Part shown: piece by piece, positions 1-51,392 of the stretch
Layout of the letters: each line of letters opens with the position of its first letter
Position numbering within the stretch: position 1 is the first letter of the stretch
NCBI GenBank assembly: GCA_947462335.1
Contig: OX381704.1
Coordinates: forward strand, 122,384,065-122,448,064
DNA from: Harmothoe impar
Taxonomy: Eukaryota > Annelida > Polychaeta > Phyllodocida > Polynoidae
Direction of reading: 5' to 3'
Length of the DNA stretch: 64,000 nucleotides
The notes under the pieces: generated by a model
Database searches by the model: none
Seen by the model: only the letters and a program-made list of their open reading frames with translations
Told to the model about the DNA's origin: nothing
Made by a program: the position numbers and the translations under genes

Positions 1-785
1 TGGATCGGTATGGTATAGAGGGGGAGGATTACCCAGGTGTTTCACCCCTTTGGGCTTTACACAAGGGTACAGGGAATCCAACCTCTGCACATGCATGATA
101 TCCAAATGGACAATATATTTCTTGTAAACTTCACCTAATGACGGCTTAATCTACACACTGCAGTATTGGTGTTTATGGGAGTAGTACTGCTCTGTATGCT
201 GCACTTGTGAGTTACTCACCAGGACTGCACTCATGCACAGCACCTTGCCGACCTCACATTTACCATTTAACCCTTACATTTAACAAATGTCATATTTTAG
301 CGACTGAGTCCTTAGAGGGTTAAGGACTGAATAGTGTATCAGTGTCCATTTCTTCTCATGATGAACCAATTAAACCATTGCACCAATTGTAATATAATCC
401 TGCCCTCAGGCTGTAGTGGGAGATTAGCAATCCACTCCTTATTCTTCATGGAGTGCAGCAGCTTCAGTGATTTAACCAAAGAATGCCACATTTCACAGCT
501 CCTGGGAAACAACCAATGCTCGTATTTCACGGCTTTGTGACGTCATCAAAAACGGTGGTTTGTTCACATTTGAACGAGGTAGAAAAAAACTATTCTAGGC
601 CCCCCCTATCATAATTTACAGCCTCGGCCTACAGTCTCGTGGAATGGGAGTTGGAAACTATCAATAACTCAATCACATTTTCACTATTATCGGAAAAAAA
701 ATCTTATAAAATTGAATCCAATGTAAAAAATAGATTTTACCTAATTTTGTCAAAAGCGATGTATCTGATATGAAAAGGAAACACA
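1..785. other. Unassigned AT-rich flank with a MITE remnant
   Basis: No convincing gene. Positions about 190-320 resemble the TTAA-type MITE family (TCACCAGGACTGCACTCATGCA, and a right end TTTTAGCGACTGAGTCC...GGGTTAA ending at about 322). The short ORFs at 334-540 on both strands lack protein-like features. Confidence 0.5.
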
Positions 786-1050: not shown

Positions 1051-1174
1051 ACCTGAAACTGGCGCGGAGTCTCCTCATGGCCGTCATGCGTTCGTCGTCC
1101 TCCTCGTCCTCCTCGTCTCCCTGAGCCCTGTGGTACACCCGCGTGGGCAGCGACTTACTCCTCCGCACCGACAT
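1051..1174 (-). CDS. Candidate first coding exon, acidic Glu/Asp run; function unknown
   Basis: On the minus strand an ATG at 1174 opens about 41 codons beginning MSVRRSKSLPTRVYHRAQGD, then a Glu/Asp cluster (about residues 20-28), then ERMTAMRRLRASF. The coding-like part ends in TTTCAG followed by GTGCGA at about 1051/1050, a good splice donor; the reading frame past it becomes AT-rich and unconvincing and overlaps the end of a MITE. An in-frame stop (TAA) lies upstream of the ATG, so this fits a first coding exon and not an internal one. Composition (GC-rich, charged, basic SKSLPTR motif) differs sharply from the flanking repeats. I do not recognise the protein. It could also be a chance ORF; no second exon was found. 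Confidence 0.35.
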
Positions 1175-1194
1175 GCTGCCCTCCTCCAGGGTAC

Positions 1195-1800
1195 GACTCC
1201 CTGACCCTTACTACAGCACTGGGCATCTCACTGGTACTCTCTCAGACTCACTGATAACTCCTAAAGCCTGCAGAATACTGAGACCCTCACTGGTACTCTG
1301 TTAGACTGCCTGATAACTCCTAAAGCCTGCAGAGTCTCATTGGTACTCTCTCACTGAGACTCTTAATAGAACTCTTTCACTGGGATTCTCTTATGGAGAA
1401 TATCACTGGTTCTCTCTGGCTGGAACTCTCAAGAATGCTCTCTTACTGAGACTCTCACTGGTACTCTTAATTGTAGTCTCTCACCGGTACTCTCTCCGAC
1501 CGCCTGATAACTCCTGAAGCTTTCAGAATATCACTGGTACTGCCTGACTGAAACTCTCAATGGTACTCTTATTGGTAGTCTCTCATTGGTACTCTCTTAC
1601 TGAGACTCTCAATGGTACTCTTATTGGTAGTCTCTCATTGGTACTCTCTTACTGAGACTCTCAATGATACTCTCTCAGACTGCCTGTTAAATCCTGAAGA
1701 TTGCAGAATGTCACTGGTACTCTCTCACTGAAACTCTTACTGCCCTTTTAATGGTACTCTCTCACTGGTACGCTCTCACTGAGACTTTGTAATAATACTC
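1195..1800. repeat. Degenerate CTCTCACTGGTACT-type tandem repeat
   Basis: Many imperfect copies of CTCTCACTGGTACTCT and ACTGAGACTCTC. A block of about 52 bp around CTCAATGGTACTCTTATTGG is duplicated at 1556-1660. No coding potential. Confidence 0.75.
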
Positions 1801-2280
1801 CGGCAATAAAAGGAACTGAATCCCAATGCTGTGAGTCCAATTATACACTATACCGCTTTGCATCAATTCACCGTAATCCGAGTATACATTTACTACTAAT
1901 TAGCACATAGATTGTGGATACCGTCGTATTTGTTATGTGCGTCTTACGCCTTTTCATGTTTGGCTGTCAGATATGTATACTGTGTACATCCTCTAGGCAT
2001 GTCTCTCTTTCAGTAAAGTAGCGTGACTCCATCGTACATGTCAAGTTTTACCGTATTTCTCTCATTTCCCTGACTCTAATTTCCTTGGGTCATATTTGAT
2101 ATTTTGAAATTACTGACGCTTTTGTAACCGATATCCACTGTTCGAATTTTTTCATTTTCCAGTTACCCAGTGTATTCCTGTTACCTGCTGCTGATCTGTA
2201 CACAATGGTACCTGAGTCGATATCAGCGTACAGCCTCCAGGTGTGTAGGGTGTGAGTAGGCGGTACTCCCAGCCTTATAG
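1801..2280. other. No recognisable feature
   Basis: Mixed-composition DNA without long ORFs, palindromes or family repeats that I could see. Confidence 0.5.
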
Positions 2281-2282
2281 AG

Positions 2283-2420
2283 GGGGATATAGAGGTAGAG
2301 TCACTCTGCTACCCAGGCCTTACACCACACATACTCAATGTCACAGAGTGGCAGGTAGAGGTACAGTCACTCTGCTACCCAGGCCTTACACCACACATAC
2401 TCAATGTCACAGAGTGGGAT
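2283..2420. repeat. 66-bp tandem duplication
   Basis: Two copies of a 66-bp unit containing TCACTCTGCTACCCAGGCCT (starting at 2301 and 2367), with a third partial edge (GATATAGAGGTAC). It creates the internal peptide duplication of the 2252-2728 ORF, which I do not regard as a gene. Confidence 0.85.
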
Positions 2421-2679
2421 ATAGAGGTACCTACGCTGATCTGAGGATCAAGCTCATCACGTGCCTCATGACTAATGGTACCACACGCTTGTCATACAGT
2501 CAGGAACCACGCGCCTGTCCTTTAGCCAAGGTTTTCGGTGATAAATGTCTACACGCAAGCAGCCTTTGGTACAATATCTGGTCTTACCATTGTAAGACTA
2601 GACAATATCCAGGTGCTTATTACCAAGTTCTAGGCAGCCTGGCAGTGGGTTACTTATATTCAAAAAAGCCTCAAGGTAA

Positions 2680-2735
2680 TTCTTACCCAGGGTTTGAACC
2701 ACTGACCTACTGCACCTTATACCACTAGGTGCCTG
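2680..2735 (-). repeat. tRNA-derived SINE-like head
   Basis: On the minus strand there is an A-box-like CTAGTGGTATAAGGTG and a B box GTGGTTCAAACCCTGGG (2688-2703) at tRNA-like spacing. A full cloverleaf is not evident, so this is a SINE head or a tRNA relic. Confidence 0.5.
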
Positions 2736-2939
2736 CTGCAGTGTAACCTCAGGGGTGTAAATCCTGCCTATTCCTATATCTACCAGCAGCACACGGCTGC
2801 CTCCGCTGCTCCCCGTGACTCCCGGTATCCTAAGGAGGAGGTGATTAGTCTCTATAGTGGTTTGCTGCCCGTGTCACTGAGGGGGGTCTGATCGCCTCGC
2901 TCTGTGCCTCTGTACTGCCGGCTTCAGGTGGTCGTGAGA

Positions 2940-3090
2940 CCCGCGACTTACCCCCCCCCTCCCCGCCCCCCCATGCCGCGACACCCCCCCCCCCCTGCAT
3001 GCCTCTCCCCCATTGATCCTCCGGGCATCGATCTGAGCATCAACCCCTGACGACAGACGACAGAGGACGCGTGGTGACAAGGAGTGGTCC
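2940..3090. other. C-rich tract
   Basis: Several C runs of 7-11 bases (2951-2993) followed by GC-rich DNA; overlapping minus-strand Gly-rich ORFs here are composition artefacts. Confidence 0.6.
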
Positions 3091-3099
3091 CCACCCTCC

Positions 3100-4130
3100 T
3101 GCTACCACTACCTGGGGGGAGCACCTTAACCCACCCTGCCACCCTGCTACCCCCCAGCTATAGTAAGTCTCTGAACACCCACCCAGGCCCTCCCTACCTG
3201 CTACCAGGCTACCACCTTGAACGCCTTAACCCACCCTCCTACCTCCCACCTATAGTAAGTCTCTGAACACCCACCCAGGCCCTCCCTACCTGCTACCAAG
3301 CTACCACCTTGAACACCTGAACCCACCCTGCCCCCTCCCACCTATAGTAAGTCTCTGAACACCCACCCAGGCCCTCCCTACCTGCTACCAAGCTACCACC
3401 TTGAACACCTTAACCCACCCTGCCCCCTCCCACCTATAGTAAGTCTCTGAACACCCACCCAGGCCCTCCCTACCTGCTACCAAGCTACCACCTTGAACAC
3501 CTGAACCCACCCTGCCACCTCCCACCTATAGCAAGTCTCTGAACTGCTGCTGAACACCCACCCAGCCAGTCCCCACCCTCCCTGCTACCACCTACCTAGG
3601 GGAACCTACCTTAACACACCTTACAATGCTAACCACCCCACACTCCTCCCTGCCACCACCCACCTATAGTATGTCTCTGAGCACCCACCCTGCCAGTACC
3701 TACCTGGTACCAAGCTACCTGGGGGGACCTACCTTATCCTATCTTACCAACCTACCTTCCTACCAGCCACCACCTGCCTCCACTCACCCATAGTAAGTCT
3801 CTGAACACCCTCCCAGCCAGTCCCTACCCTCCTGCTACCACCCACCTTACCACCTCCCTACCACCCACCTATAGTAAGTCTCTGAACACCCTCCCAGCCA
3901 GTCTCTACCCTCCCTGCTAACAAGGGGGGACATAAAGGCACCTCAGCACCCTCCTCCCAGTCACCACCCACCACCCACCACCCACCACCCACCACCCACC
4001 TATGGTAAGTCCCCACCGTCCCTGGTACCACCTATCTGGGGGAACCTACCTTAACCCACCTTACAATGCTAACCACCCCACCCTCCTCCCAGTCACCACC
4101 CACCTATGGTCTCTCAGTTGGTGATAACCT
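3100..4130. repeat. 92-bp C-rich tandem array, decaying rightwards
   Basis: Five regular copies spaced 92 bp (TAGTAAGT or TAGCAAGT at 3161, 3253, 3345, 3437, 3529), each containing TATAGTAAGTCTCTGAACAC, CCACCCAGGCCCTCCCTACC and CTGCTACCAAGCTACCACC. Degenerate copies carry on near 3665, 3790, 3871, 4000 and 4106. Each unit holds a perfect GTAAGT donor-like hexamer. Confidence 0.88.
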
Positions 4131-4480
4131 GAATCTACCTTCTACACATTTATAAACCCACCTTGTCAACCTAACTCCATCTATCACCCTATCTGTCACT
4201 CCCTCCCTCCCCTCCCTCCCTGTTACCAAACTACCTTAGGGGAACATTCCCCCACCTTAGCACCCTCCGTGCCACATTTATGGTACCTAGAACCCTACCC
4301 CCCCCCCCCTCCTGCACCTCCCACCTCACCACCTACCACCCACCAAGATACCTGGTTGTGAACGTTGACTGTACCCACCCTGCCACCCTACCATTCACTC
4401 AGCCCCCAGCAACATACATGGAGTGTTTTAGCTGTAGATGAGGTGAATAAAGACTGCTAGTACATCATGTGTGCAGTCAG
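4131..4480. other. C-rich low-complexity DNA
   Basis: Continues the CCACCC-rich composition with CCTCCC runs and a C run at 4300-4310; no gene. Confidence 0.5.
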
Positions 4481-4481
4481 T

Positions 4482-4706
4482 AGCGGAAAAAATCTCTGAT
4501 AAACCGCCTCCCTTATAAGCCCCCCCCCAAGTTTGACACAATGCTATAAGCCGAATTTGGACCCATTCAAACCTCGTTAGACTATAATTTACTTGATTAA
4601 AGAACTCCCTTATGAGCCCATCCCCCTCTTGAGACAATGCTATAGGCCGAATCAGGCCTAAAATACCTAGAAAAGGTCAGCTTATCAGAGATGTTTTACG
4701 GTATAC
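4482..4706. mobile_element. MITE family M2 (TTTTACGGTA ends), diverged
   Basis: Contains ATAAGCC blocks (CTTATAAGCC, GCTATAAGCCGAATT) and ends GATGTTTTACGGTATAC; the left end (CGGAAAAAATCTCTGATAAACCG) is the weaker partner, and ATCTCTGATAA/TTATCAGAGAT forms the inverted pair. Confidence 0.6.
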
Positions 4707-5059
4707 ACCCGCGATGACACTGCTGACAAGGTGTAGACCCTAGTGCTGCCACCAGGGGGGCAGCATATCACCCACACAGTGCCTCCTTACCCACCTGAGG
4801 GCACCTTGAGCCACCTTACCCAGCCTTGACACCAGTACAAGCAGTCTCCGAGCTGCTGGCTGGGTCAACTAAAGGCCAAATTTCACCCTCATGCTTATAT
4901 AACAGAGACATATTTATTCCTATTTTTTTGAAATTCAAGATTTCCTATGCTTTAGCACTGAAGGGCCGTATTCAATGCCCCCCATTGAATACAATGTGGC
5001 CATATTCAAAGGGCTGGGAAAAAAATTATTTTCGTCATTAATGGCTTCGAATAAAAAAT

Positions 5060-5190: not shown

Positions 5191-5399
5191 TATTGCAGTG
5201 TTTGAGACCGATTTCAAGTCCCTGTACCCTTGGATACCATTTACTGTATCACAATTGCAGCTGCATATCATAAGAGCAGTGATGAGGCTGACGAGGACTG
5301 CCTACCAGTCGGCAGCGGTGACAAGAAGCGATCAGCCGGCCACCTTATTGCCCCCTGAGGGGTCTGCTGCTGCACCTCCTCCACCTGCCTGACTATCTG

Positions 5400-8205
5400 T
5401 GGTGAAAAACGATGCCTATAGTAGGTCTGTGAGCTGCCTGTAGTAGGTCTGTGAGCTGTTGGTGAGGCTGACACAGGCTGCCTACAGTAGGTCTGTGAGC
5501 TGTTGGTGAGGCTGCCTACAGTAGGTCTGTGAGCTGCTGGTGAGGCTGCCACAGGCTGCCTACAGTATGTCTGTGAGCTGTTGGTGAGCTGACACAGGCT
5601 GCCTACAGTAGGTCTGTGAGCTGTTGGTGAGGCTGACACAGGCTGCCTACAATAGGTCTGTCAGTTGTTGGTGAGGCTGACAGAGGCTGCCTACAGTAGG
5701 TCTGTGAGCTGTTGGTGAGGCTGACACAGGCTGCCTACAGTAGGTCTGTGAGCTGTTGGTGAGGCTGACAGAGACTGTCTGTAGTAGGTCTGTGAGCTGT
5801 TGGTGAGGCTGACAGAGGCTGCCTGTAGTAGGTCTGTGAGCTGTAGGTGAGGCTGACAGAGGCTGCCTACAGTAGGTCTGTGAACTGTTGGTGAGGCTGA
5901 CAGAGGCTGCCTACAGTAGGTCTGTGAGCTGTAGGTGAGGCTGACAGAGGCTGCCTACAGTAGGTCTGTCAGTTGTTGGTGAGGCTGACAGAGGCTGCCT
6001 ACAGTAGGTCTGTGAGCTGTTGGTGAGGCTGAAATAGGCTGCCTACAGTAGGTCTGTGAGCTGTTGGTGAGGCTGCCTACAGTAGGTCTGTGAGCTGCTG
6101 GTGAGGCTGCCACAGGCTGCCTACAGTATGTCTGTGAGCTGTTGGTGAGCTGACACAGGCTGCCTACAGTAGGTCTGTGAGCTGTTGGTGAGGCTGACAC
6201 AGGCTGCCTACAATAGGTCTGTCAGTTGTTGGTGAGGCTGACAGAGGCTGCCTACAGTAGGTCTGTGAGCTGTTGGTGAGGCTGACACAGGCTGCCTACA
6301 GTAGGTCTGTGAGCTGTTGGTGAGGCTGACAGAGACTGTCTGTAGTAGGTCTGTGAGCTGTTGGTGAGGCTGACAGAGGCTGCCTGTAGTAGGTCTGTGA
6401 GCTGTAGGTGAGGCTGACAGAGGCTGCCTGTAGTAGGTCTGTGAGCTGTAGGTGAGGCTGACAGAGGCTGCCTACAGTAGGTCTGTGAGCTGTAGGTGAG
6501 GCTGACAGAGGCTGCCTACAGTAGGTCTGTGAGCCGTTGGCGAGGCTGACAGAGGCTGCCTACAGTAGGTCTGTGAGCTGCTGATTAGGCTGACAGAGGC
6601 TGCCAACAGTAGGTCTGTGAGCTGTTGGTGAGGCTGACAGAGGCTCTGCAGTAGGTCTGGGAGCTGTTTGCGAGGCTGACAGAGACTGCCTACAGTAGGG
6701 CTGTGAGCTGTTGGTGAGGCTGACACAGGCTGCCTACAGTAGGTCTGTGAGCTGTTGGTGAGGCTGACAGAGGCTGCCTACAGTAGGTCTGTGAGCTGTA
6801 GGTGAGGCTGACACAGGCTGCCTGTAGTAGGTCTGTGAGCTGTTGGTAAGGCTGACACAGGCTGCCTACAGTAGGTCTGTGAGCTGTTAGTGAGGCTGAC
6901 AGAGGCTGCCTACAGTAGGTCTGTGAGCTGTTGGTAAGGCTGACACAGGCTGCCTACAGTAGGTCTGTGAGCTGTTGGTGAGGCTGACAGAGGCTGCCTA
7001 CAGTAGGTCTGTGAGCTGCCTGTGAGGCTGACAGAGGCTGCCTACAGTAGGTCTGTGAGCTGTTAATGAGGCTGACAGAGGCTGCCCATAGTAGGTATGT
7101 GAGCTGTTGGTGAGGCTGACACAGGCGACCTACAGTAGGTCTGTGAGCTGTTTTGAGGCTGACAGAGGCTGCCTGCAGTAGGTCTGTGAGCTGTTGGTGA
7201 GGCTGACAGGGGCTGCCTATAGTAGGTCTGTGAGCTGTTGGTGAAGCTGACAGGGGCTGCCTATAGTAGGTCTGTGAGCTGTTGGTGGGGCTGACACAGG
7301 CTGCCTACAGTAGGTCTGTAGAGATGTTGGTGAGGCTGACACAGGCTGCCTGCAGTAGGTCTGTGAGCTGCTGGTGAGGCTGACAGAGGCTGCCTACAGT
7401 AGGTCTGTGCGCTGTTGGTGAGGCTGACAGAGGCTGCCTACAGTAGGTCTGTGAGCTGTTGGTGAGGCTGACAGAGGCTGCCTGTAGTAGGTCTGTGAGC
7501 TGTTAATGAGGCTGACAGGGGCTGCCAACAGTAGGTCTGTGAGCTGTTGGTGAGGCTGACAGAGGCTGCCTACAGTAGGTCTGTGAGCTGTTGGTGAGGC
7601 TGACAGGGGCTGCCAACAGTAGGTCTGTGAGCTGTTGGTGAGGCTGACAGAGGCTGCCTACAGTAGGTCTGTGAGCTGTTGGTGAGGCTGACAGGGGCTG
7701 CCAACAGTAGGTCTGTGAGCTGTTGGTGAGGCTGACAGAGGCTGCCTGTAGTAGGTCTGTGAGCTGTTGGTGAGGCTGACAGAGGCTGCCTACAGTAGGT
7801 CTGTGAGCTGTTGGTGAGGCTGACAGAGGCTGCCTACAGTAGGTCTGTGCGCTGTTGGTGAGGCTGACAGAGGCTGCCTACAGTAGGTCTGTGAGCTGCT
7901 GGTGAGGCTGACACAGGCTGCCTGTAGTAGGTCTGTGAGCTGTTGGTGAGGCTGACAGGGGCTGCCTACAGTAGGTCTGTGAGCTGTTGGTGAGGCTGAC
8001 AGAGGCTGCCTACAGTAGGTCTGTGAGCTGTTGGTGAGGCTGACAGGGGCTGCCTACAGTAGGTCTGTGAGCTGTTGGTGAGGCTGACAGGGGCTGCCTA
8101 CAGTAGGTCTCTGAGCTGTTGGTGAGGCTGACAGAGGCTGCCCTTAGTAGGTCTGTGAGCTGTTGGTGAGGCTGACAGAGGCTGCTTGTAGTAGATCTGA
8201 ACTGT
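5400..8205. repeat. Very large 44-bp minisatellite
   Basis: About 60 copies of a 44-bp unit, for example GAGGCTGCCTACAGTAGGTC followed by TGTGAGCTGTTGGTGAGGCTGACA. A segment is duplicated at a 561-bp offset: the rare variant CAATAGGTCTGTCAGTTG occurs at about 5650 and 6211 within long matching flanks. Minus-strand ORFs repeating SASPTAHRPTVGSLCQ are a by-product. No regulatory or coding role is evident. Confidence 0.95.
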
Positions 8206-12040: not shown

Positions 12041-12424
12041 CTTTTCCGTGATCTGTTACACTATCATCTAGGGAAGTGTTTCATATTGGACCCCCCATCT
12101 GCAACATACTCCAGAAAGACTGAACTGCTTCAAATCTCTCTTTTCATAACAACATAATGCTAGATCTACCGTAAAACATGCAAATGTTTTTGTTTTTTTT
12201 AAAGTATTTATTGGGTCTAATGACTATATAATATATATAGCCAAACCTAGACTTAGGCGCATTGCCTTTCTGCCGTCCGTACCCCTATCTAAATTACATC
12301 AAGTGTTGGACGGTCTTAATCTCTTTCATTATAAGCTATGGAGAACCTTGTAGCATGTTTACATCATGTAATGCATTAATATATATAAATAGATTATATC
12401 ATATACGTACAGTTTTGGTATGTT
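12041..12424. other. AT-rich DNA 3' of the LINE
   Basis: AT-rich with an ATATATA stretch near 12225-12240; a possible M2-like CTACCGTAAAACATG at 12167. No gene. Confidence 0.45.
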
Positions 12425-12483
12425 ATTATATTAGAATGATGAGATGAGATGAGAGATGAGACATTGTAAGTTAGATGGCAAGT

Positions 12484-14289
12484 TCACGCCATGAAGCAGT
12501 CCGGGTAATCGCGCTTAATGGCTAGCTTAAAGTCCCTCAGGGAGTCAATAAGCGTGTAGGATGGTTTCAGGTCATTCCACCTGTCAATGGCCCTATACAG
12601 GGCACTTTTTGTCACTATTGGTTTAAGGCTGCGTATGGCCTTAAGCCTATTTCCTAGGTGTCTACGTGTAGGTATATCGCGTACATCAAGCATGTCAGGC
12701 ATCTTTGACAATGAAAACGCATAATATAAAAGATGAATGTCACGTCTATGATTAAGGTAAAGGCATCCACTTTTAGTGTGTAACTCATCTGTATTATACA
12801 TAGGGTTTTCCTCGAGCTTCACCTTATAAACAGTACGTAAGCCTTTGTTTTGAAGCAACTGAAGCTCCCAATTTTCACCCTTTTTACCCCTATCCCAAAC
12901 AAAATCCCCATAATCAAAAGATGGTATCACCATGGCCTTATATATGCTTAGGGCACTAGCACTATCAACATGTGTTCTTATTTTACCCAGCTCATTAATT
13001 CTATGTCTTATGTTGGACATCGCTAGTTTCCTGTGACTAATAAAAGATAAATCAGGGTCCAAGGTGATACCCAAATAAGGGAAGGTGTAACATCGAGATA
13101 GAGTAACATTATTCATAGTAAAGATAGGATTATCATTATGAATATTATTATAAATCATCCATTGAGTTTTGTTTTCATTCACTGTAAGACTATGCTCCCT
13201 ACACCATACTGATAGCTTATCAAGACACACTTGCATTTGTATTGGATTAGTGAAAGATAAAACTGCATCATCAGCGTAAAGTACAATGTGAAAGTCATCA
13301 ATTAAAGGTAAAGAATTAATATATATGGAAAAAAGGATAGGGCCTAGCACAGAACCCTGTGGTACACCATATACTATAGGAGCATCATCTGAGAGTGTAT
13401 TATTAGCTACTGTGCGTTGTACTCTATCAGTTAAATAGCTTTTGAACCAAGCGCATGTTTCTTCGTTAAGTCCAAAACCATCTAATTTTTTAAGAAGAAT
13501 AGGGTGGGAAATCGTATCAAATGCCTTTTTGTAGTCCAAATAGAGGCTATATGTAAGCAGGTTATTAATAATGTTATTAATAATGAATTTAATGTGTGTG
13601 GTAGTGGCTGAAATGGTGGAGTGACCAGGCCTGTAGCCATGTTGCGCTGGGGTCAAAAGATTATAAGTACTCATGTGATGCTGAAGCCTCTTACATATAA
13701 CACGCTCAAATAATTTTCCTGGTAGAGGGAGGAGACTAATGGGTCTTAAATCACTAACACTCATGGAGTTTGCCTTTTTCGGTAGGGGAACAACAGTGGC
13801 GGCCTTCCAGGACCGGGGAAAATAATTCTTACGCAGGCATAAGTTAAACAGACACATTAACGCTTCAGGTATGATGAATAGAGTATCCTTTAAAACATAA
13901 GATTTTACATGTTTAATACTAGAAGACTTAGTAACATTAATTGTTTTAATAACTTTAATAACATCTAGATAGCTAAGTTCCCATAGTAGATCAACCTTGT
14001 TGACTGGCGCAGTAGCAGGCGGAGTGTAATATACATGTGGGTCAATAGGTGGCAGCACCTCAGCTAGCTTGGAACCGATGGTCGAAAAGTAATCATTAAT
14101 GAATTTAGAACAGGCTTCTGAAGATATGATTTCATTAGTCAGAGAATTTTTCAACTTAATAAAAGTAGAACCTGTTTTGGTCGGTAAAAGCTTCCTAACA
14201 CCTGCCCAGAACTGAGCAGGGTTACTTCTTCTTTGGACAAAGAGTTCGTCTAGCTTCTCTTTCCTGCTGTAATGTATCATAGCCTCCAC
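12484..14289 (-). pseudogene. LINE ORF2, 3' part: reverse transcriptase and C-terminal domain
   Basis: This is 601 codons ending with stop 12484-12486. It is the downstream half of ORF2 in another frame, not an independent gene, and overlaps the endonuclease part by 68 bases. RT motifs in order: LRPISLLPLPGKLFERV (181-197), HGYRPGHSTISATT (217-230), LDYKKAFDTI (motif A, 251-260, catalytic Asp252), GVPQGSVLGPILF (motif B, 308-320), LYADDAVLSF (motif C, 337-346, catalytic Asp pair 340-341), NENKTQWMIY (371-380) and YLGITLDPDLSF (405-416). The C-terminal part (QLLQNKGLRTVYK, then PTRRHLGN, ALYRAIDRWNDLKP, LRDFKLAIKRDY) is typical of the CR1/L2-like group. No stop interrupts the RT, so breakage is limited to the junction frameshift. 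Confidence 0.93.
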
Positions 14290-15364
14290 CCTGTTCTTTA
14301 GCTATATTCCAGTCGTCTGGATCCATCGACCTCTGGGCTTTGACATATAATGAGTCTCTAACCTGCATAGCGTTAATAATTGGTGGTGTAAGCCATTCCG
14401 GTGTATAGACCGGTAGTACCAGCCTACGTATGGGACATAATACATTCAAACATCTTTTAATCGTATAAATAATATTATCCCATAAAGTATCTGGATTATT
14501 ACAAGTGAAAATGTCATCCCATTTTTCAGCTAATAATAAATTTTTAAAATGCTGCATGTCATAATGCTTATACGATCTAGCATCGACAACTTTTTTTCTA
14601 ATTTTTGTGCGCTCACACTTAATCAATAAATAAATAGGCTTATGATCAGCAATATGAAAATCTATGGTACCAAATTCACATACATTGTGAATCCTCTCAT
14701 TGATATAAATATGATCTATGAGTGTACCAGAAATAGGGCGAGTTATCTCATCAATAAGCTGAAACATATCATTGTCAGTACAGAAACTCTCTACATTAGA
14801 GTCTTGAATATCTTTCCTAGTAAAAAGGTCCACATTAAAATCTCCAAACATTATTATTTTCCTATTTTTAGAAACAGGTGTTTTGAGTTCCGTTAATTTA
14901 TCAAAAATAGCCCTTTTGCTTACATCCGCATCAGGTGGCCTATAACACACGAAAATTTTATATTTAATCTTACCAATTTCAACATCGACACACAAAATTT
15001 CATATTCCCTATCAATTATACAGGCATTCTCATCTAGTGTGGCAGTGTATGTATCTCTTAAGTAAATCATTAAACTTCCAGCCTTTTTGTTCCGGTTGGG
15101 GTACCTATCAAGCCTAAAAAATTGATAACCGGGGAGGTGCATCATTGCATCAGATATAGTAGGGGTGAGCCACGATTCTACGACACCTGTAATATCCGTG
15201 TGCGTAATAAATTTCTTAATATTGACCCGTTTTGGGTAAGCTGACCTAGCATTAATACATGAGAAGAGAAGACCTTTACGGTCAGATACTGTGTCTAACC
15301 TAACCATTGCGTAGAGCCCAGGACTCGGTGGTACGGTAGATGATATGAGATGACATGATAACAC
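14222..15364 (-). pseudogene. LINE ORF2, 5' part: APE-type endonuclease domain
   Basis: This is 380 codons from ATG at 15364; a second possible start is Met20 (MVRLDTV). Endonuclease/exonuclease/phosphatase motifs are in order: SCINARSAYPKR (35-46), GVVESWLTP with the catalytic Glu63, KAGSLMIYLRD (94-104), FVCYRPPDADV (138-148), MFGDFNVDLF with Asp175 and Asn177, LIDHIYIN (215-222), and FHIADHKPIY with the Asp240-His241 pair. All main catalytic positions look intact. The domain nicks target DNA to prime reverse transcription. After residue about 357 (DDWNIAKEQ) the frame leaves the family pattern; the correct continuation lies in the next frame from about 14300. A single-base loss in the A run near 14297-14302 would explain it. 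The last about 20 residues of this ORF are out-of-frame sequence. Confidence 0.9.
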
Positions 15365-15841
15365 ATATGAAAAGCTGATCGCATCTGTAACATTCTAGCA
15401 TAGCTATGGTATCAGAGAGAAGCTTAGAGCTCCGGGGTAATACAGATATTTTGAGCATTCTACGAGCCTAAAGAAGAAGAAATGATTATGAAAAGTGTAT
15501 ATTACCGGTAGTAAGGGTCACACATATATATGCACAATGCTATAGGTAATTATGTGAGAAAGATTAATTTTCACAAATTATAAATAATTAAATAATTAAA
15601 TTGAGAAGGCACAATCCACAGAGCTTATTGGATTGGTATAATATACGGTAGAGACCTTAGGAGCCTGCAACACACACTGACTATGGCGGGTCAGTAGGTC
15701 AGCTAGACAGCTAGATCTTACATAACATTGCCGCTAAGGGTGGACTGGGCAATCAATCCAACAGGTCGTTAACACATATGTCAAACGGCACTTTGGTTAC
15801 ATAACTGGTACTCACAGACATATATATAGTTTAATATGTAT
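15365..15841 (-). other. LINE inter-ORF region
   Basis: About 480 bases between the end of ORF1 and the ORF2 start, with no ORF and no obvious inserted element. It is AT-rich near 15530-15620. Long inter-ORF gaps are unusual for LINEs, so part of this could be decayed coding sequence or a regulatory spacer used for ORF2 translation. Confidence 0.5.
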
Positions 15842-17815
15842 TTAACGGCCTTGTGTAGGTACATGTCCCTTCATTAGGGCATGTAGATCTTGACTGGCTT
15901 GTCCTTGTCCTTGTCCCTGTTGGGGCGTGGGAGTAAAGTTCAGCTTGCTAGGCCTTATGATACATCCAGGGCTTCCAAGAGGGGGGATGACAGGCTGATG
16001 ATACACCTCAAGGCTCCTTCTGGTATCATGGCTATTGTACATGTTGTTCGTAGCATCATGCCAAGCCCCACCTCTCGAGCCTCTATTAGATCTGCCCCTC
16101 CTCCTGTTGTCTGGTCGTCGCCCTGCACCCCAGGGGGCTGAGTCGTATCTGACATCCTGCGTCTGCCTATATGTGGTGGGAAGAGCTGTGCGTTGGAGTG
16201 TGTGTGTTGGTTTGGGCAGGTGGACGATCGCAGCAGCGGCGCCCGGAGTTTGCACTTCAGAAGCTTTTCCCCTTGGTGGTGTCGACATATCATTTACGTT
16301 CGTGATGACTGGGGGGGGGGGGCTGGTGGTGCTGTAGTAGTTGGCTCTGTGTTTGTTGAGGTTGATGTAGCTGCCGTAGCTGTTGCTGGAGGTGTAGCTG
16401 CCGCAGGTGGTGTGGTCGGTGCTGCGGTGGTTGGTGCCGCAGGTACCGCAGGTACCGCAGGTGTGGCATCAGGTTGTGCTGCGGCAGGAGTTACTGCTGG
16501 AGGGGGGGGGGGGTGGAAGGAGTGGGATGGCTGCTCCTCCAGTCTCTTGTGGTTTAGGCCTAGCATGTGGGTTAGGTATCCCACACAGGATTCGTCTGGC
16601 CTCCATCAGTATATATCCACCCCTGTTTTGGCCTTTCCACGTACCATTTTTAAGGGCTTTGCTTTTCATAGAGGCCCCTATGCCCCAAAATTTGGAACCT
16701 GTGACCTCCAAAAGCACTCGAGATTCGGTTGCCCTCAAAATTTGAAGGAGGCCTGCATCTTGTTCATATTTCATCACATTCAGTTGTTGGAGGTTACTCT
16801 CGTCATGATTCCTCCATGTAGGGCAGTCTATGTCCTTACCAAGGTTCATTGCCTTAAGAGGAGTAAAGGCGTCCATAATCTCTTGTGCCTTGACCATGTC
16901 TCCTGCATATAGGGCTTTTCTATGGCAAAGGCCCTGCTCAACTGACGAATATATATGTTGACCAGATTCAATTCGGCATGGGTAGAAGTTGGAGAGGGGA
17001 GCCAACTCAGAGTGATACCCTACGTATGTATCAGTGACTACCGTACGACAGTTTGCTAATTTGATCTCCTCGGGGAGTCGGCTCAGGTTCTGGTGGGTAT
17101 AATAACGGTTGTTATAAATAAGACCTCTACCTTTTGCCTTTACATCATAGTTCATCTCGAAAGCTAGCTGAGCCACAGATGAGACGTCAGCTTTCTGCTT
17201 TTTAATTACTGCGTTGGTATCCTCAGAGACATATATATGCTTGACTTCAGGATCATTGTTTAAACCACCTTTTAATGTCATAAGCTTGTCCCTGGTGGAA
17301 GCCTTGGTAAAGACAGCTACTATGGCTCTCTTGGTGGTGTTTGGGGCACCCTGCCTATAGGCGTAATCGAGTTCGTATCTATCAATGGTCGGGTCAATCT
17401 TTTTCAATAATTCAAAGGTGATATCATCAGTATTCTCTCTGGGGGTGAAGGGTAAGCCTTCTATGACTAAGTTCCTGCGTCTGGCCGCTTGGTCCTGTAT
17501 AGCTAGAGAGATCCCTAATTCTGCAATGTCACGGGTGTTAACCCTCACTTGCCTTTCCGCCCTGTCAAGCCTAGACTCAAGCTGTCTTACCCTGTCCTCC
17601 AGTACCGCCTTTTCATTTTCAACTGTCACAATCCTCCCGTGGGCATTTTCAATAGACTCTGACAGTAGTTCTTTAGTAGAGTTCAATCCAGTAAGAACAA
17701 AGTCTAATGCAGTCGACACCTTACCTCCTATGTTAGGACCAGAGCGGGTCTTGGCCGATTCAGTGGCGAGCTCCTTGATTATGCCTTCCACCTCGTCAAG
17801 GGTGGTTGACGCCAT
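15842..17815 (-). CDS. LINE ORF1 protein: coiled coil, RNA-binding domain, NADAR domain, P/A-rich and RG-rich tail
   Basis: The ORF runs from ATG at 17815 for 448 codons to 16469. It starts MASTTLDEVEG. Residues about 45-110 look like a coiled coil (ENEKAVLEDRVRQLESRLDR). Residues about 111-250 resemble the L1 ORF1 RRM-like and C-terminal region: RRRNLVIEGLPF, a predicted HRxG-like segment (YAYRQGAPNT), AIVAVFTKASTRDKL, and a closing NLSRLPEEI. Residues about 262-412 match a NADAR domain (listed separately). At a C run read from the + strand G tract near 16501-16512 the frame shifts; the next frame continues Pro/Ala/Thr-rich to 16294. A second G tract near 16309-16322 leads into a third frame, ending at 15842, that is rich in Arg/Gly (RRRGRSNRGSRGGAW) and Gln/Pro. 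The unbroken parent protein would be about 650 residues. The shifts could be real indels, slippage or base-calling errors in homopolymers. The role inferred from LINE families is binding element RNA in the RNP. Confidence 0.85.
16580..17032 (-). other. NADAR (YbiA/DUF1768) domain inside LINE ORF1
   Basis: This is residues about 262-412 of ORF1. Visible family hallmarks in order are: LSNFYPC (274-280, family pattern xSNFYP), YSSVEQGLCHRKAL (289-302, family pattern of a Ser-Glu followed by an aromatic/His and then KA), a Trp in CPTWRN (W334), NVMKYEQDAGLLQILRAT (346-363, family pattern xxMxxAxxAKFxQNxxLxxxLLxT), KFWGIG (375-380), and GQNRGGYILMEARRIL (395-410, family pattern GxNxLGxxLMxxR). The spacing, of about 150 residues in all, fits a complete domain. 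NADAR proteins hydrolyse N-glycosidic bonds in riboflavin-pathway intermediates or remove ADP-ribose from guanine in DNA. From memory, an Asp normally sits two residues before the FWG; here that position is Ser374, so catalysis may be altered. The assignment rests on motif recognition, not a profile search. Confidence 0.82.
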
Positions 17816-18168
17816 GTTTACGTATAGCAGTGGGCACCGGTGATTCTGGAGAAACCTATGTCGGCATGTAGAACTCTATTGAATTCAGCCAGGCTGTAAA
17901 TTTCCAGTCCAACGTGGTCACAGAACCTTACTCCAGTAGTGTGGTGTATGTTAAGGCTCTCACTGTTGTTTTAACCATTCCTGGGGGGAATATCCCTCAG
18001 AGCTCAGCGGCGGCGCGTCTAGCAGGTCTCGTTCTCCATATCATTATTGATTATTCTATATGTTTGGAGAATTATGATGTGTGACAGAATTGACCCTCAA
18101 ATATGTAACATCTACTTGGAGAATCTGAGATCTGCATCGATTTTGAGAGATACCTTGTGAAAAAGATA
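17816..18168. other. LINE 5' region and flank
   Basis: No ORF. The piece next to ORF1, up to about 18060, includes a GC-rich stretch (18005-18030, CAGCGGCGGCGCGTC) that may be the LINE 5' UTR or internal promoter. The transition to flanking DNA is not visible. Confidence 0.35.
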
Positions 18169-18704
18169 GTGTGTGGGATCTGCATGGAGAGTGGCTGCAT
18201 GTGACAGAGATGGATCCCTGTGTGTAGGATCTGCATGGAGAGTGGCTGCATGTGACAGAGATGGATCCCTGTGTGTAGGATCTGCATGGAGAGTGGCTAT
18301 ATGTGTCAGAGATGGATCGCTGTGTGTAGGATCTGCATGGAGAGTGGCTACATGTGACAGAGATGGATCCCTGTGTGTAGGATCTGCATGGAGAGTGGCT
18401 GCATGTGACAGAGATGGATCCCTGTGTGTAGGATCTGCATGGAGAGTGGCTGCATGTGACAGAGATGGATCCCTGTGTGTGAGATCTGCATGGAGAGTGG
18501 CTGCATGTGACAGAGATGGATCTCTGTATGTGAGATCTTCATGGAGAGTGGCTGCATGTGACAGAGATGGATCTCTGTATGTAGGATCTGCATGGAGAGT
18601 GGCTGCATGTGACAGAGATGGATCCCTGTGTGTAGGATCTGCATGGAGAGTGGCTGCATGTGACAGAGATGGATCCCTGTGTGTAGGATCTGCATGGAGA
18701 GTGG
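18169..18704. repeat. 51-bp minisatellite
   Basis: About ten copies of a 51-bp unit: GGATCTGCATGGAGAGTGGC, TGCATGTGACAGAGATGGAT, CCCTGTGTGTA. Because 51 is a multiple of three, both strands stay open (MQILHTGIHLCHMQPLS on the minus strand), which mimics a repetitive protein. Confidence 0.95.
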
Positions 18705-18824
18705 CCGGTGCCCCTGACCTCTGACCTTCTGTTAGAACCTGCTGTAGGCAGCGCGGTGACTGTCGACAGCTGACGGGGGTGCAAGAACTAAAGATGGAAT
18801 GCTGTTCTATACCGTATTTTATTC

Positions 18825-30515: not shown

Positions 30516-32827
30516 ATTTGAATGTAAACATGTCCATGTCCTCTGTGTAAAACCAGGGGCAGCACAGGGCCTGCTGACTGCAATATGTATTATGAAGGAA
30601 AACAAGGGAGAGCTTTCATTTATAAGCGTATTCCTAGGTATATTTTATCCAAATCCAAGGGAATTACTGTTTGAATTGAGCACAGCTATGCATAATAATG
30701 ACTATCCACATTACATGATAGAAATAACTTCACTCATTTTACCCTCTTCTTTTTATTTTGACAATCAATGTCATTTTGTGAAAATGGAGACCAATATTCG
30801 CCTAAAAAGTGAATGAGGTCCAATTGTTGAGCAGTAATGTATTTAAATCCAGCAATCAGAGAAACGAACCTCCAGCTGTGGAGACCCGGCACAGGCAGTG
30901 AGCATGGTGTGTCACACATTAACTACTGGAGAAGGGAACCGGGGATACTTTGTTCACATTGATCACTCAAAGCTCCACTGAGTCCCTAGTTTGCAGTGTA
31001 ACAATTCTAATAGCATTTCACTCTGAGGGCTTATTCACAACTTAATATATAGTGTATTAGTAAATATCCAATATAATTAAAACCCAGTGTATATTCCAGC
31101 ATGACCAATATCATACTACCCCACCACCAACAGTCAGTATGGAGCGAGGAATGGTACATGAAGTGGAAGACTATTATGCATCGTTTTAGGCCTAAAAGCT
31201 ATTGAACTATGGGGGGAAGAAGATGAACTTTGATGAGGTTTGCCTGTTTTTTTTTACATTGGACATACAATGAATTGACATCATCAAGGTGGCTGAGCTA
31301 CATGACCTAGCTACATCGGGAAGCAACATCACAGTCTGTGCATATAAGCGACATTGCCATGTCACCAAGCAATGATGTATGCCATCAAAAGCGCTGATAG
31401 ATTGCTGTCAGATTTGTCGATAGTTTGCAGTAAGAATCACAGATAATTTTCTGTCAGAATCATTTTTCGGGGTTATATCCAATTTTATAATATTGGGGAG
31501 GGGGGTTAGTTTATACTGAAGGCAGTGTCTGAGCACAGCACATGGACATGAACAGAACCCGTGCAGCCTTGTGTGAACTGTAAAACCTTATTACATCAGC
31601 ACTGAGCACATTTTAACAGATTTGTGGCAAGTTAAAAACTTCATTCTGTCTGCACCAAGCAATAATGACATTATTACAACTTTTGATGATCAGATGGTCA
31701 GGCATCTGAAACCAATGGATGTCGTTTTTGAAATTTCATCTTAAAATTCATGTTGTATTTGTTTCCCAGTGGGCCACAGTTGTGCTGAGGGGGGAGGTAC
31801 GAATGTCCCTTTTAACATTGTAATGAGACACTCCAGGCCTTCATATTGTCCCAATGTCCAAAACATTTTTAGTCTTTCAACTATGGGCTGCAAGCTTCAA
31901 TGTGACCACTGATTGTAGGCATCTTTTGTATAAAATGACAAAATTAAAAGATAATCATTTCATGGTTTCAAATAGTAATGCATGTAGAATATTCAGCCAT
32001 ACATTGAGATGTGATACAAATACTGATTATGAGAAGGTAACAAATAGAAATTCTGTAGCTAACGTTTACCTCCCCTTTTACCAAATTAAAATTTGAGAGA
32101 GAACAGAAGGCAACTAAAGCTCAACATGTGTTAATGTTCAGAAATATCAGAGGAAATAGCATTTTTCCATATTTGATATCAGAGGCATGAATGCTGAGTA
32201 ACTCACTAGTCAAGTGCATTCATCAATTCTGCAGACTTGTAAGGGGTTTTCCAGTCTGGATTGGTCAGAATTGTTTATCAATGCAGCACCTGCAAGTAAT
32301 TTGCTTGAGCCTTGAGACCTTGACTTCTTGACTCCTTGAACACCATGTCTTAATTGAATTGTAGGGCTATCCCTGTTCTTATAGTCAAACTACATAGTGC
32401 ACACTTGTTAGTCTGTCTTGGATGATTAGACAAAGCATCCAGGGGGTGCAATAAGTGAGGAATGGTTGGTTTTTGAATAGTGAATAAATCTCGGCGTTTG
32501 GTTCATGTATCAGTACATCACGGAGGTTACACTGCTGAAGAATCAGAAGGATACACTAATGTATGGGCAGCGAGTGGTTCACTGACAATGTAGGGAGAGA
32601 CTGAAGCCAAGGTTTTACTTCAGCATGGGAAAGATCTCTAACAAGGTTTTAGAGAAGCTTTAAATTTTTTTGTGAATTAGTCCTGCTGGGATAATTGACA
32701 AGCGAGGCAGGATTGAGCATCCCACATGACCAATCAGTGAGAAACGGCATGTTTTGGAATATTGAACAAACTTTATTCCTGTGTTTTCAGAAAATATGCA
32801 TGGTGAACAGGTGCTGATAGACATGAC

Positions 32828-33370
32828 GGTTGTGGCCTACACACCTCAGAGACATGACGTCTGGGGCCTACACACCTCAGAGACATGACGTCTGTGGTCT
32901 ACACACCTCAGAGACATGACGTCTGGGGCCTACACACCTCAGAGACATGTCGTCTGTGGTCTACACACCTCAGAGACATGTCGTCTGTGGTCTACACACC
33001 TCAGAGACATGTCGTCTGTGGTCTACACACCTCAGAGACATGACGTCTGGGGCCTACACACCTCAGAGACATGACGTCTGTGGTCTACACACCTCAGAGA
33101 CATGACGTCTGGGGCCTACACACCTCAGAGACATGTCGTCTGGGGCCTACACACCTCAGAGACATGTCGTCTGGGGCCTACACACCTCAGAGACATGACG
33201 TCTGTGGTCTACACACCTCAGAGACATGACGTCTGGGGCCTACACACCTCAGAGACATGTCGTCTGGGGCCTACACACCTCAGAGACATGTCGTCTGTGG
33301 TCTACACACCTCAGAGACATGACGTCTGTGGTCTACACACCTCAGAGACATGACGGCTGTGGCCAACACA
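32828..33370. repeat. 31-bp minisatellite in unit B
   Basis: About 17-18 copies of GACGTCTGTGGTCTACACAC plus CTCAGAGACAT, with GGGG/TGTGG and GACGTC/GTCGTC variants alternating. Copy C has about five decayed units at 38375-38540. The 84-residue ORF here repeats every 31 residues because three units make 93 bases. Confidence 0.93.
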
Positions 33371-34633
33371 CCTCAGGACCCACATTACAGTAGCACATAG
33401 GTGTCTATAGTGAGAATGAAAGAGACGGGAACTGTAAAGCACACTGAGACCCATCAGCATCAGTAAGTCTCAGTAGAGACGGTGTTAAGGGCCCAGACTG
33501 ACTGTGTGTGGAGAGTAAGGCCCTTGGGCTTAAGGGTGACAGGATGCAAAGTAAATTGTGTGTTCAAATTTTAAAATCCTGTTTTCAGAAACAGGGCCTG
33601 AAGTGACTTCAGTGGAATAACATACTGCATGTACATTAATGCAGTTAGAGCAAGGCTAAAATGTAGAGGTCATGAGAAGGTCAAGTCAACTGATGGTGCT
33701 GTGGCATGTTGCAGGGCTTTTAGCAACAAAAATGTCAATATCATCAGAATAGGGCATGAGACTGGAACAGTCTCATTTTCTGGAACCATCCCTGACAAAC
33801 CTCATCATGTTAGCACCAAGCAGTGATAACAGTATCATAATTTCTGATGATCAGATGACAGAACCAAATTCCAAACTATTTTCTTTGCAAAGCCCTGGTT
33901 GACAATGTGGAAGACTGACATCCCTAACAATATAATGAGATAATGGGGCTGTTAAAACTATATTCTCAAAACCTTCAATTACACTGTAAAATGTCAAAAG
34001 TAAATATGGCAAGTATTCACAGATCTGATCACTGTGTATAACATAAATATCAGTGTCAGACTATGTCAAATGTATGTATAACATACAACTTTCCCTTTGT
34101 TGAAAGTAAAGTCCGCTCACATTCCCATCGCAGCTAATGGAACATTTAAAGCCAATATTCATTGCTTTTTCATCCTAAACATCCGTTCGTTCTCAGTGAT
34201 TTAAGTGCCTTGTCTGGAGATAAGCCATCTACATAAATCAAAGTGTTCATCATAATTAAAACTTGTGGCATTAGCTACTCTTGTTGAGCCTGTTGTTTCA
34301 TCTTATACCACGATTCTGGCGTTTCCCGTGCCGAGAGTGGATATTTGCCATGCGGTTATCTCAGGATATACGCACGCTCAGAATTCATTTAGGGGGTTAG
34401 TAGAGTCTAGTACGTCTCAAAAGAAGAAAACATTGATAATGGGGGGGGGGGGGGGGGGGTGTATGGGGGAAGGTAAGGAGGGTGGGGGGAACTTTACCTA
34501 TTTTTTATTCTGTGACTTTATATGTCTCGTATTATGAAGGAAAACAAGGGAGAGCTTTCATTTATAATCTCTATATATTTTAACAAGGTAATGAAAGATA
34601 GGCATTGCCATTTTGGCCACGAATTTAGTGAGA

Positions 34634-42629: not shown

Positions 42630-42689
42630 CTATATAGTGACAGAGATGTATGCTGTAAAGTACCCCTCAGCCCCAGTCAGTCTGAGTGC

Positions 42690-43165
42690 AGGACGTGTAA
42701 AGGTCACAGACACACTGTAAAGGTCACATACACACTGTAAAGGTCACAGACACGCTGTAAAGGTCACAGACACGCTGTAAAGGTCACAGACACGCTGTAA
42801 AGGTCACAGACACGCTGTAAAGGTCAAAGACACACTGTAAAGGTCACAGACACACACTGTTAAGGTCACAGACACACTGTAAAGGTCACAGACACACTGT
42901 GAAGGTCACAGACACACTGTAAAGGTCACAGACACACTGTAAAGGTCACAGACACACTGTAAAGGTCACAGACATACTGTTAAGGTCACAGACACACTGT
43001 AAAGGTCACATACACACTGTAAAGGTCACAGACACACTGTAAAGGTCATAGACACACTGTTAAGGTCACATACACACTGTAAAGGTCACAGACACACTGT
43101 AAAGGTCACAGACACACTGTAAAGGTCACAGACACACTGTAAAGGTCACAGACACACTGTGTGTG
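42690..43165. repeat. 20-bp minisatellite in unit D
   Basis: About 23-24 copies of TGTAAAGGTCACAGACACAC. Units A and C hold one copy (AAAGGTCACAGACTGACTGT near 28629 and 38640). Confidence 0.95.
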
Positions 43166-44009
43166 GAGAGTAAGGCCTGAGCCGCACGCCGAGATGCTGC
43201 AAAGGGAATTGTTTATTTGCATTTCAAAATAAGGTTTTCACAAACAGGGTCTGAACACATTTTTCTGGAATCACATACAGCACTTACATTGATGCAGTTA
43301 GAGCAAGACTTAAACATGTAGAGGTGATGAGAAGGTCAAGTCAAGGTCATTGTCAGGGCTGGGACCCTGATGTTGCTGTGGCATGTTGCAGGGCTTAGAG
43401 CAACAAAATGTCAATATCATCAGAATAAGGCACAAGACTGGAACAGGACATGTACAAGATGCTGTGTGAAATATATCATTGGCTGGAACCTCCACTGCAG
43501 TGGTAATAACATGCGATATATAGACAAATGCCAATGTCCATTGATGCCGTCTCTGTCATATTTCACACAAAGTTGGCCTTTGTGTTTGTATTTGTTTTTC
43601 TTCCTGCTGCACCGATAACCCAGATAGGGGTAGTGTGCACACTGCACTACACCAGTAGTGGTGTCTGGGCAGCATTAAACCTCATTATGTTAGCACCAAG
43701 CAGTTATTACACCATAATAGTTTCTGATTATCAGATGACAGAACCTAATTCTAAACTATTTTCCTCACAAAGCCCTAGTTGACAATGTAGCTGCATCCAG
43801 ACTGTCATGGCTAACAGTATAATGAACACTACTAATTACATCCGCAATATGCCAGCCATAACTTGGACAGACTGGTGGAGGTGTTCAGAACCATTAGAAA
43901 CTCACTAGCCCCACCTGGTGGACGTTCTCAGAATCTTCAGAAATTCACATACTCCTCTTGGTGTGTTTGTTCAGGGCAAATTTTTGAAAACATTTTAGTA
44001 AGTTTCCCC

Positions 44010-47025: not shown

Positions 47026-47394
47026 CTCGTATCAAGAAGCATATAGGGTGGGAGGTCTCACTTAGCACCTCGCCTATGGGCATAATGTGACAAGCCTCCC
47101 CCCTCTAGCCCCATCTACCCCCCCATGAAAGTGGGCGACCTTGTGTGCTCACTATTGAAAACTATGGAGAAGAGTGGGTTTTATGTGGTTCTTTTGAGTC
47201 TTTATTAGAGTGATACCAAATAAAAAGAAGGGGTTATCTAGACAAAAAAATCCTGCTGAATCCAAATTTTGTGGTCTTGATTCCCAAAAACTGACCAAAT
47301 CCACTCAAAAATGAAGTTTGATAATGCTAAGTATTAAGAAAATGTACAAAATAATGTTGAAAATGTTTGGGACATTACCTATATATAAACCTGT

Positions 47395-48890: not shown

Positions 48891-48895
48891 GATAG

Positions 48896-50059: not shown

Positions 50060-51392
50060 AGGTAGATGAAGGTACATGTGTATGTACACTGTTGGATAGG
50101 TCCCTTAGGTGTATGTTTACTAAGGAATAGTGTAGGTACATTGGGAAAAAGGAAGGCTGGGAGACCTTAGATAGGTAAAAGGTTATAGGGAGTATGAGGG
50201 ATAGGCAGAATAAGGGCTAGTTATAACATGAGGGATAGGTATTCAGCAAAATGAAGTCTGAGAGGGATAGGTCGTGTGGGTAATAAGCAGTGTGAGAGAT
50301 AGATATGGAGGGTATCTTGCAAGGTGGGGATGTGTAAATGCCATGGGGGCTAGGGAGTCTGAGGGATGTGTAGGTTAAGCATGAGGGATATGCCAGGATA
50401 GGCTCAATGAAGGATAGGTTGACTAGATGATAGGAAAATTAACTTATACATAGAAATAGTTGACATGTTATGTTGAGCTCCATGTGGGATTAGATAAGTT
50501 GAATGTAGATGAGACATAAGGGATAGGCAGAGTGAGGGATAGTCACATTGAGGGATAGGTAGGCTGGGTGATAGGAAAATCGAGGATAGGTACAAATCAT
50601 AGTGGACATGGTGAGGAATGTTATGTTTAGCAGATGGGCATAGTTAAAATATGAATAAAGCTGATAAAACATGACAAATAGGCAGAGTGAGGGATAGTCA
50701 AAATGAGGGATAGGTAGGCTAGGTGATAGGCATATTTGGGATAGGTAGACTCAGTGATAGGTAGGCACAGAAAGTGGGCAGGAGTAGCAAGGAGAGGGAT
50801 AGGCTTTAGCCTTTAAGCTTTTGGAGGGATGAGCTAATCCAAGAGAAGGTTCTAATTCAAGGGATAGGTAACTTGAGGGATAGGTAGGCTGAGGGATAGG
50901 CAGTGTGCAGGATAGGTAGAGTGATACATAGGAAGAATGCCTGTCAGATTGAGGGATAGGCCAATTTTGAATAGGTAGATTGAGGTACTGATTTTGATTG
51001 ACAGGTTTATATATAGGTAATGTCCCAAACATTTTCAACATTATTTTGTACATTTTCTTAATACTTAGCATCATCCAACTTCATTTTTGAGGGGATTTGG
51101 TCAGTTTCTGGGAATCAAGACCACAAAATTTGGATTCAGCAGGATTTTTTTGGTCTAGTAAAAACCCTTCTTTTCATTTGATATCACTCTAATAAAGACT
51201 CAAAAGAACCACATAAACTCCCTATTCTCCATAGTTTTCAATAGTGAGCACACAAAGTCGCCCACTTTCATGGGGGGGTAGAGGGGGGGGGCTATAACAT
51301 GGGAATCTACCGAGTCGGACATCCTACCCTATATAATCCTTGCTCGTATCACAAACAATTGCTTGTGGTATGGCCATGCTGGACGCTTCACG

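Follow-up and report, generated by a model that had tools for sequence, protein, structure and literature searches.

NADAR domains have been described in retrotransposons. The part of PMC12477816 concerned with them mentions, in one sentence, NADAR in ORF1 of Crassostrea gigas Tx1 LINEs, places the domain also in the Pol protein of Gypsy elements from Ectocarpus and suggests RNA processing as its role. The first-pass annotation named no standard LINE ORF1 of this architecture, allowing that domain databases might have noted one; the oyster elements are such a precedent. In the portion of PMC4120745 dealing with ORF1 types, type II proteins (coiled coil, RRM and CTD; Transposase 22) are assigned to the CR1 and L2 lineages, and NADAR does not figure among the ORF1 domains listed for 448 Jockey-superfamily elements. 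Another hydrolase domain is described for ORF1 of ZfL2-1, a vertebrate CR1/L2 element, where it is an SGNH esterase and not NADAR (PMC3905857). The NADAR of P. nicotianae (PDB 8bau) and YbiA of E. coli (2b3w) are free-standing enzymes.

The locus described here was found in a 64-kb window of the Harmothoe impar genome. It shares NADAR in ORF1 with the oyster elements and NADAR in a retrotransposon protein with the Ectocarpus elements, in which the domain sits in Pol. As in type II CR1/L2 proteins (described in part of PMC4120745), an L1-ORF1p-like coiled coil, RRM and CTD precede an ORF2 of probable Jockey-superfamily type; to this plan the window LINE adds a C-terminal NADAR followed by a Pro-rich stretch and an Arg/Gly-rich tail. 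Like ZfL2-1, it has a hydrolase domain in ORF1, and other loci in the same genome pair an SGNH-fold ORF with a NADAR ORF1. The sentence on C. gigas in PMC12477816 comes with no analysis of selection, structure or copies. Judged by its motifs, the window RT is CR1/L2/Jockey-type and not L1/Tx1, whereas one other locus (L037) does look L1/Tx1-like. In the open-access literature, no report was found of NADAR in CR1/L2-type LINEs, nor of NADAR in any LINE beyond PMC12477816. Since the oyster Tx1 NADAR is already known, the novelty lies in what appears to be another LINE superfamily, in a large radiation within one genome and in the evidence from selection and structure. The domain lengthens the list of enzyme domains in LINE ORF1 proteins.

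The LINE copy in the window

The element occupies positions 12185-18040 on the minus strand, as do all its parts given below, and is a full-length copy of ca. 5.86 kb with ends set by comparison with other copies. Position 18040 is the common 5' end at which the alignments of nine fetched loci stop (eight distinct copies, L002 and L009 being one and the same). The element has the features of a non-LTR retrotransposon, namely an APE-type endonuclease (EN) and RT in ORF2, no LTR and a poly(A)-like 3' end. Inspection by eye revealed no target-site duplication at this copy. The 5' untranslated region (17816-18040) separates the common 5' end from the ATG that opens ORF1 (16469-17815), and the 3' untranslated region with the poly(A)-like end lies at 12185-12483. 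L009 is 99.1% identical to the window copy end to end, over 5866 alignment columns, and the family has therefore moved recently.

Both ORFs are damaged. ORF1 goes out of frame within a run of C past NADAR, and three-frame translation against L003, whose ORF1 is an open 677-codon frame, located the out-of-frame remainder at 15842-16468, with the Pro-rich stretch first and the Arg/Gly-rich tail after it. In full-length ORF1 the Pro-rich stretch likewise follows NADAR, the Arg/Gly-rich tail being present in the window's closest kin. The uninterrupted frame of 448 codons noted earlier is thus real as a frame but represents a shortened form, 20 other copies being open for 614-682 codons. ORF2 is broken across two frames, with the EN part at 14222-15364 (PF14529, 2.5e-7; PF03372, 5.4e-6) and the RT part at 12484-14289 (PF00078, 6.5e-38; motifs GVPQGSVLGPILF and YADD), and because of this split the window copy is probably not autonomous.

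The AlphaFold2 model of ORF1 predicts a coiled-coil helix at residues 29-88 (17552-17731), followed by an L1-ORF1p-like RRM and CTD at residues ca. 113-252 (17060-17479) and by NADAR at residues 270-410 (16586-17008). Human LINE-1 ORF1p is a structural match to model residues 104-253, and no match to the Pfam Transposase_22 family was obtained in the N-terminal part. The order of coiled coil, RRM and CTD in the model is that of a type II, L1-ORF1p-like protein, and gives structural backing to the L1-ORF1-like coiled coil and RNA-binding region initially proposed from the letters alone.

Other repeats occur in the window. A 51-base tandem repeat array (18067-18780) lies directly 5' of the LINE and starts ca. 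30 bases from its 5' end. Minisatellite arrays at ca. 5389-8000, 56483-57300, 59522-60362, 32690-33495 and 42636-43242 have units of 44, 13, 31, 31 and 20 bases, respectively. An inverted repeat at 47243-51152, with 448-base arms that are 98% complementary and ca. 3 kb apart and with more pairs inside, is perhaps a foldback element or a DNA transposon. Between ca. 25000 and 40300, blocks repeated 3.8-5.6 kb apart and up to 95% alike correspond to a local segmental duplication.

The NADAR domain of ORF1

PF08719 (NADAR) matches ORF1 residues 270-410 with an E-value of 3.3e-22, scoring 79.9 bits where the cut-off is 35.1, a score that rules out a chance similarity. PDB sequence matches of ORF1 include 8bau (5.7e-7) and YbiA 2b3w (4.5e-5), and the domain in the predicted structure adopts the YbiA/NADAR fold. 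The NADAR assignment made by eye in the first-pass annotation was therefore upheld by the Pfam profile, by PDB sequences and by the comparison of the model with YbiA that it had proposed. The TIGR02464 equivalog, a riboflavin-intermediate N-glycosidase, is not supported as an identity for the domain, its match (E 6.2e-20) reaching 72.0 bits, slightly below the cut-off of 73.7.

Residues E293, K300, W334 and E370 of the window ORF1 (16706-16939) correspond to E43, K50, W89 and E125 of the P. nicotianae NADAR, the numbering of which was carried over via 8bau, for which an offset of 2 was inferred. They are invariant across an alignment of 23 ORF1 rows. In 19 LINE NADARs (the window, eight members of its family and L031-L040), E43, W89 and E125 are identical throughout; 18 rows have Lys at K50, the exception being L037 with Arg. 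The Trp of W133 is retained in 16 rows and replaced by Tyr in two and by Phe in one. As stated in the passages of PMC11543638 on these positions, residues equivalent to E43, K50 and E125 matter for hydrolysis of guanine-linked ADP-ribose, the Lys-to-Arg form is still active in vitro, and Glu at 125 is a mark of the YbiA subfamily. The window copy has this Glu (E370) together with E43 (E293) and K50 (K300) and fits that subfamily. In the 19-row comparison, the adenine and phosphate contacts of NADAR are not retained: the Y84/D86 loop is shortened, with the Y84 column gapped in 14 of the 19 rows and Tyr in none, and K75 is replaced by Met in seven. In the window domain, Y84 is missing and R79, R93 and D130 are replaced by Lys, Asp and Ser, respectively. 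Unlike 8bau, the LINE domain thus has neither the Y84 adenine-stacking loop nor several of the phosphate contacts, and several of these ADP-ribose contacts are also absent from E. coli YbiA. With catalytic residues kept and ADP-ribose contacts altered, the LINE NADAR is likely a working hydrolase, ADP-ribose being less sure as its substrate.

A genome search with ORF1, in which 94 of 3580 first-look candidates were scored, listed 95 matches of 46-100% identity; 88 of these span NADAR, the other seven being partial or split rows. Of the 28 loci L001-L028, 20 have an ORF1 that is open for 614-682 codons, counted between stops, and of the full-length loci L009-L028, 20 in number, 12 have both ORFs open (ORF1 of at least 614 and ORF2 of at least 948 codons). 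With the RT as query, 76 rows were obtained among the matches listed, some copies giving two; for 42 of these rows, an ORF1 match was listed upstream. Among the 42, L045 is a deletion copy in which ORF1 is cut inside NADAR and fused to the RT in a 791-codon frame. Among the 34 remaining rows, 13 whose ORF2 frame spans 944-975 codons were inspected at the expected place of NADAR. The domain was found in three (L054, L055 and L058) and the EN of another copy in L056; the other nine have DNA without ORF1 similarity, long frames or mutual similarity, which we read as ordinary 5' truncation. Two rows with longer frames were also inspected. L059 has an internal ORF2 duplication that results in a 1554-codon frame, and its NADAR position lies beyond the stretch fetched; tblastn found no NADAR or ORF1 match in the 1.4 kb of L060. 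No intact ORF1 lacking NADAR was met among the copies checked, which include, of the 34 RT rows with no listed ORF1 match, the 13 above together with L059 and L060.

These data support NADAR as a stable feature of the LINE family: other copies of the same LINE do carry it, and NADAR-less copies, which the first-pass annotation had named as the sign of a one-off chimera, did not turn up with an intact ORF1 among those checked. The damage to both ORFs of the window copy would suit a one-off chimera, an assembly join or a chance similarity, but the many independent copies, 88 of the 95 listed with NADAR and 12 of the 20 full-length ones with both ORFs open, and the bit score given above leave such explanations with virtually no probability. 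In one place, G000:C1:41972689-41975517(-), two ORF1 matches lie ca. 280 bases apart and are both listed with an open 1035-codon frame, perhaps a tandem ORF1 duplication within one frame.

In the 23-row ORF1 alignment, the window copy is joined by 22 fetched ones, some of the rows being nearly identical; six of the 28 loci are left out, including L001 (the window itself) and L002 (the same copy as L009). NADAR is the most conserved part of ORF1, with 54 of its 141 positions invariant; for the RRM/CTD the count is 32 of 141, and for the coiled coil 10 of 74. In 10 of 24 NADAR pairs, dS could be computed (Nei-Gojobori) and dN/dS was 0.008-0.041, values that are rough because dS is so high (1.7-3.2); silent sites were saturated in the other 14. 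The NADAR protein has been kept while its silent sites turned over, which indicates strong purifying selection. As selection has kept the domain intact, the LINEs probably use it when copying themselves.

Further NADAR loci in the genome

A NADAR profile search of the genome scored 150 of 3484 first-look candidates, all 150 above the cut-off. Fourteen further NADAR loci (L031-L044) were chosen so as to cover a range of frame lengths and genomic positions. A LINE EN or RT match, self-matches not counted, lies alongside NADAR in 13 of them, on the basis of Pfam RVT_1 for L031, L037 and L038 and with EN only in part in L035 and L043; no EN or RT match was found within 3.5 kb in L044. ORF1 forms vary widely, with NADAR at the very end in L031, deep within frames of at least 788 codons in L032-L034, and ahead of an SGNH-like domain in L038.

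Of the 14 loci, eight carry an SGNH/GDSL-hydrolase-like ORF or domain in the interval from NADAR to ORF2, recognised by eye in L038 and by alignment in the other seven. SGNH-fold ORFs lie at L033:3505-4299(-), L035:1811-2623(+) and 2677-3375(+), L036:3023-4231(-), L039:3622-4329(-), L040:1204-2082(+), L043:2190-2858(-) and L044:993-1808(+), and the fused domain at L038:1-1353(+). These ORFs have no Pfam match. The model of the L044 ORF (pLDDT 79, pTM 0.78) matches GDSL esterases, best 8gr2 with an E-value of 7.9e-8, some designed scaffolds being among the top rows. Catalytic residues are poorly retained, and activity is doubtful in several loci because the eight aligned rows have only two invariant residues.

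The motifs GVPQGS and YADD, which we take to be typical of CR1/L2/Jockey-type LINEs, occur in 15 of 18 RTs compared, and the window LINE, with GVPQGSVLGP, is provisionally assigned to that type from these motifs. A Tx1 LINE with a NADAR ORF1 would have an RQGxPLSP-like RT motif and a longer ORF2, and the window RT does not fit that type. In L037, NADAR (3-731(+)) lies upstream of a 1260-codon ORF2 (1079-4858(+)) whose RT has GTRQGCCLSP and FADD; it looks like a second, L1/Tx1-like RT type.

RT and NADAR trees share the close groups window+L010+L013, L026+L028, L021+L022, L033+L039 and L034+L040 and disagree weakly at L016/L017, rows being few and deep branches unsure. The NADAR tree contains 19 LINE, 2 host-like and 27 cellular rows, the latter hand-picked from results of a search whose profile itself included the host-like rows. 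No LINE NADAR falls among the cellular rows except two long branches: L037, at their base, and L038, which joins the protein P0121 and was flagged as a possible artefact. P0121, a metagenome protein of another build, is the one protein found by a search with the ORF1 alignment, and matches by its NADAR. ORF1 alone found none at E <= 0.001 among 8000 scored candidates, in a search that needs shared words and carries little weight, and none of the viral contigs encodes a relative of ORF1 or RT.

Possible roles of the LINE NADAR

LINE ORF1p binds the RNA of its own element, as established for L1. In animals, DNA guanine is ADP-ribosylated by pierisin, as described for a butterfly, and CARP-1 of clams is another such enzyme. 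NADARs of different subfamilies take ADP-ribose off guanine, according to the enzymatic parts of PMC11543638 and PMC11125620, and invertebrate RNA viruses carry NADARs that are thought, in the section of PMC9503650 on viruses, to oppose host ADP-ribosylation. From these points taken together, we hold removal of adducts to be the likeliest role. The locus belongs to a LINE that is abundant and was active recently, and its L1-ORF1p-like multimer carries a NADAR of the YbiA subfamily. We propose that this domain acts as a hydrolase and clears ADP-ribose-like adducts from the element's nucleic acid, a proposal to which we give about even chances. Because ORF1p coats the element's RNA, NADAR would be carried in the RNP, where it could cut the N-glycosidic bond by which ADP-ribose or a related ribosyl group is attached to guanine-like bases, be it in the RNA or cDNA of the element or in the target DNA. 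Lesions that would stop reverse transcription would thereby be cleared. Host ADP-ribosyltransferases would likely place the adducts, acting either defensively or to signal DNA damage where the target is nicked. Against this proposal stand the altered ADP-ribose contacts (Y84/D86, R93, D130, R79 and K75), the caution expressed in part of PMC11125620 that an enzyme active in vitro does not necessarily protect cells, and the purifying selection, which would fit a binding or structural role too.

The domain might instead hydrolyse small molecules, either free ADP-ribose derivatives acting as immune signals or riboflavin-type intermediates. The adenine-contact loop, shortened as in YbiA, would agree with this, as would the prediction, in the part of PMC9503650 on phages, that low-molecular-weight derivatives are the substrates of many of their NADARs. 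However, fusion to the RNA-binding domains of a LINE RNP protein points to a substrate bound to nucleic acid, and RNA-virus NADARs are argued in the same source, where it treats them, to target mainly macromolecular ADP-ribose; we consider a small-molecule substrate unlikely. A non-catalytic reader or scaffold, which would bind modified RNA or DNA or aid RNP assembly as LINE esterase domains may do, would account for the loss of several ADP-ribose contacts and has a parallel in the neighbouring SGNH ORFs with their two invariant residues over eight rows. A pure binder need not retain all the catalytic residues, yet those reported are kept (E43, W89 and E125 in 19 of 19, K50 in 18 of 19), and such a role seems improbable to us. 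A hydrolase brought to the site of target-primed reverse transcription would also fit a domain that protects the host or target site, repairing adducts or ADP-ribose marks at target-site nicks and aiding integration with no counter-defence involved; we regard this as very unlikely.

Within adduct removal, a more specific possibility is that the host defends its genome by ADP-ribosylating bases in the RNA or cDNA of transposons and that a broad LINE radiation, with two RT types, carries the eraser in its RNP protein. This is speculative and somewhat unlikely in our estimate. If true, the bacterial DarT/NADAR pair would have a eukaryotic counterpart in which a retrotransposon supplies the NADAR. 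The relevant section of PMC11125620 presents ADP-ribosylation of bases and its reversal as established in bacteria and the function of animal NADARs as open. A LINE family with NADAR under strong selection in its RNP protein offers a direct genetic test case, in which catalytic glutamates can be set against transposition; if NADAR is needed, nucleic-acid ADP-ribosylation would be a pressure on mobile elements in animals.

Under the same defence scenario, the host's own NADAR genes would protect host nucleic acid. Four of the 150 scored matches, at 150-178 bits, stand far above the rest (L029:812-1363(-), L030:623-1378(-), G000:C21:30062847 and G000:C21:30084121) and are probable host NADAR genes; three of them lie close together on C21. 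In the tree, the short frames of L029 and L030, in which NADAR is free-standing, cluster with animal NADARs.
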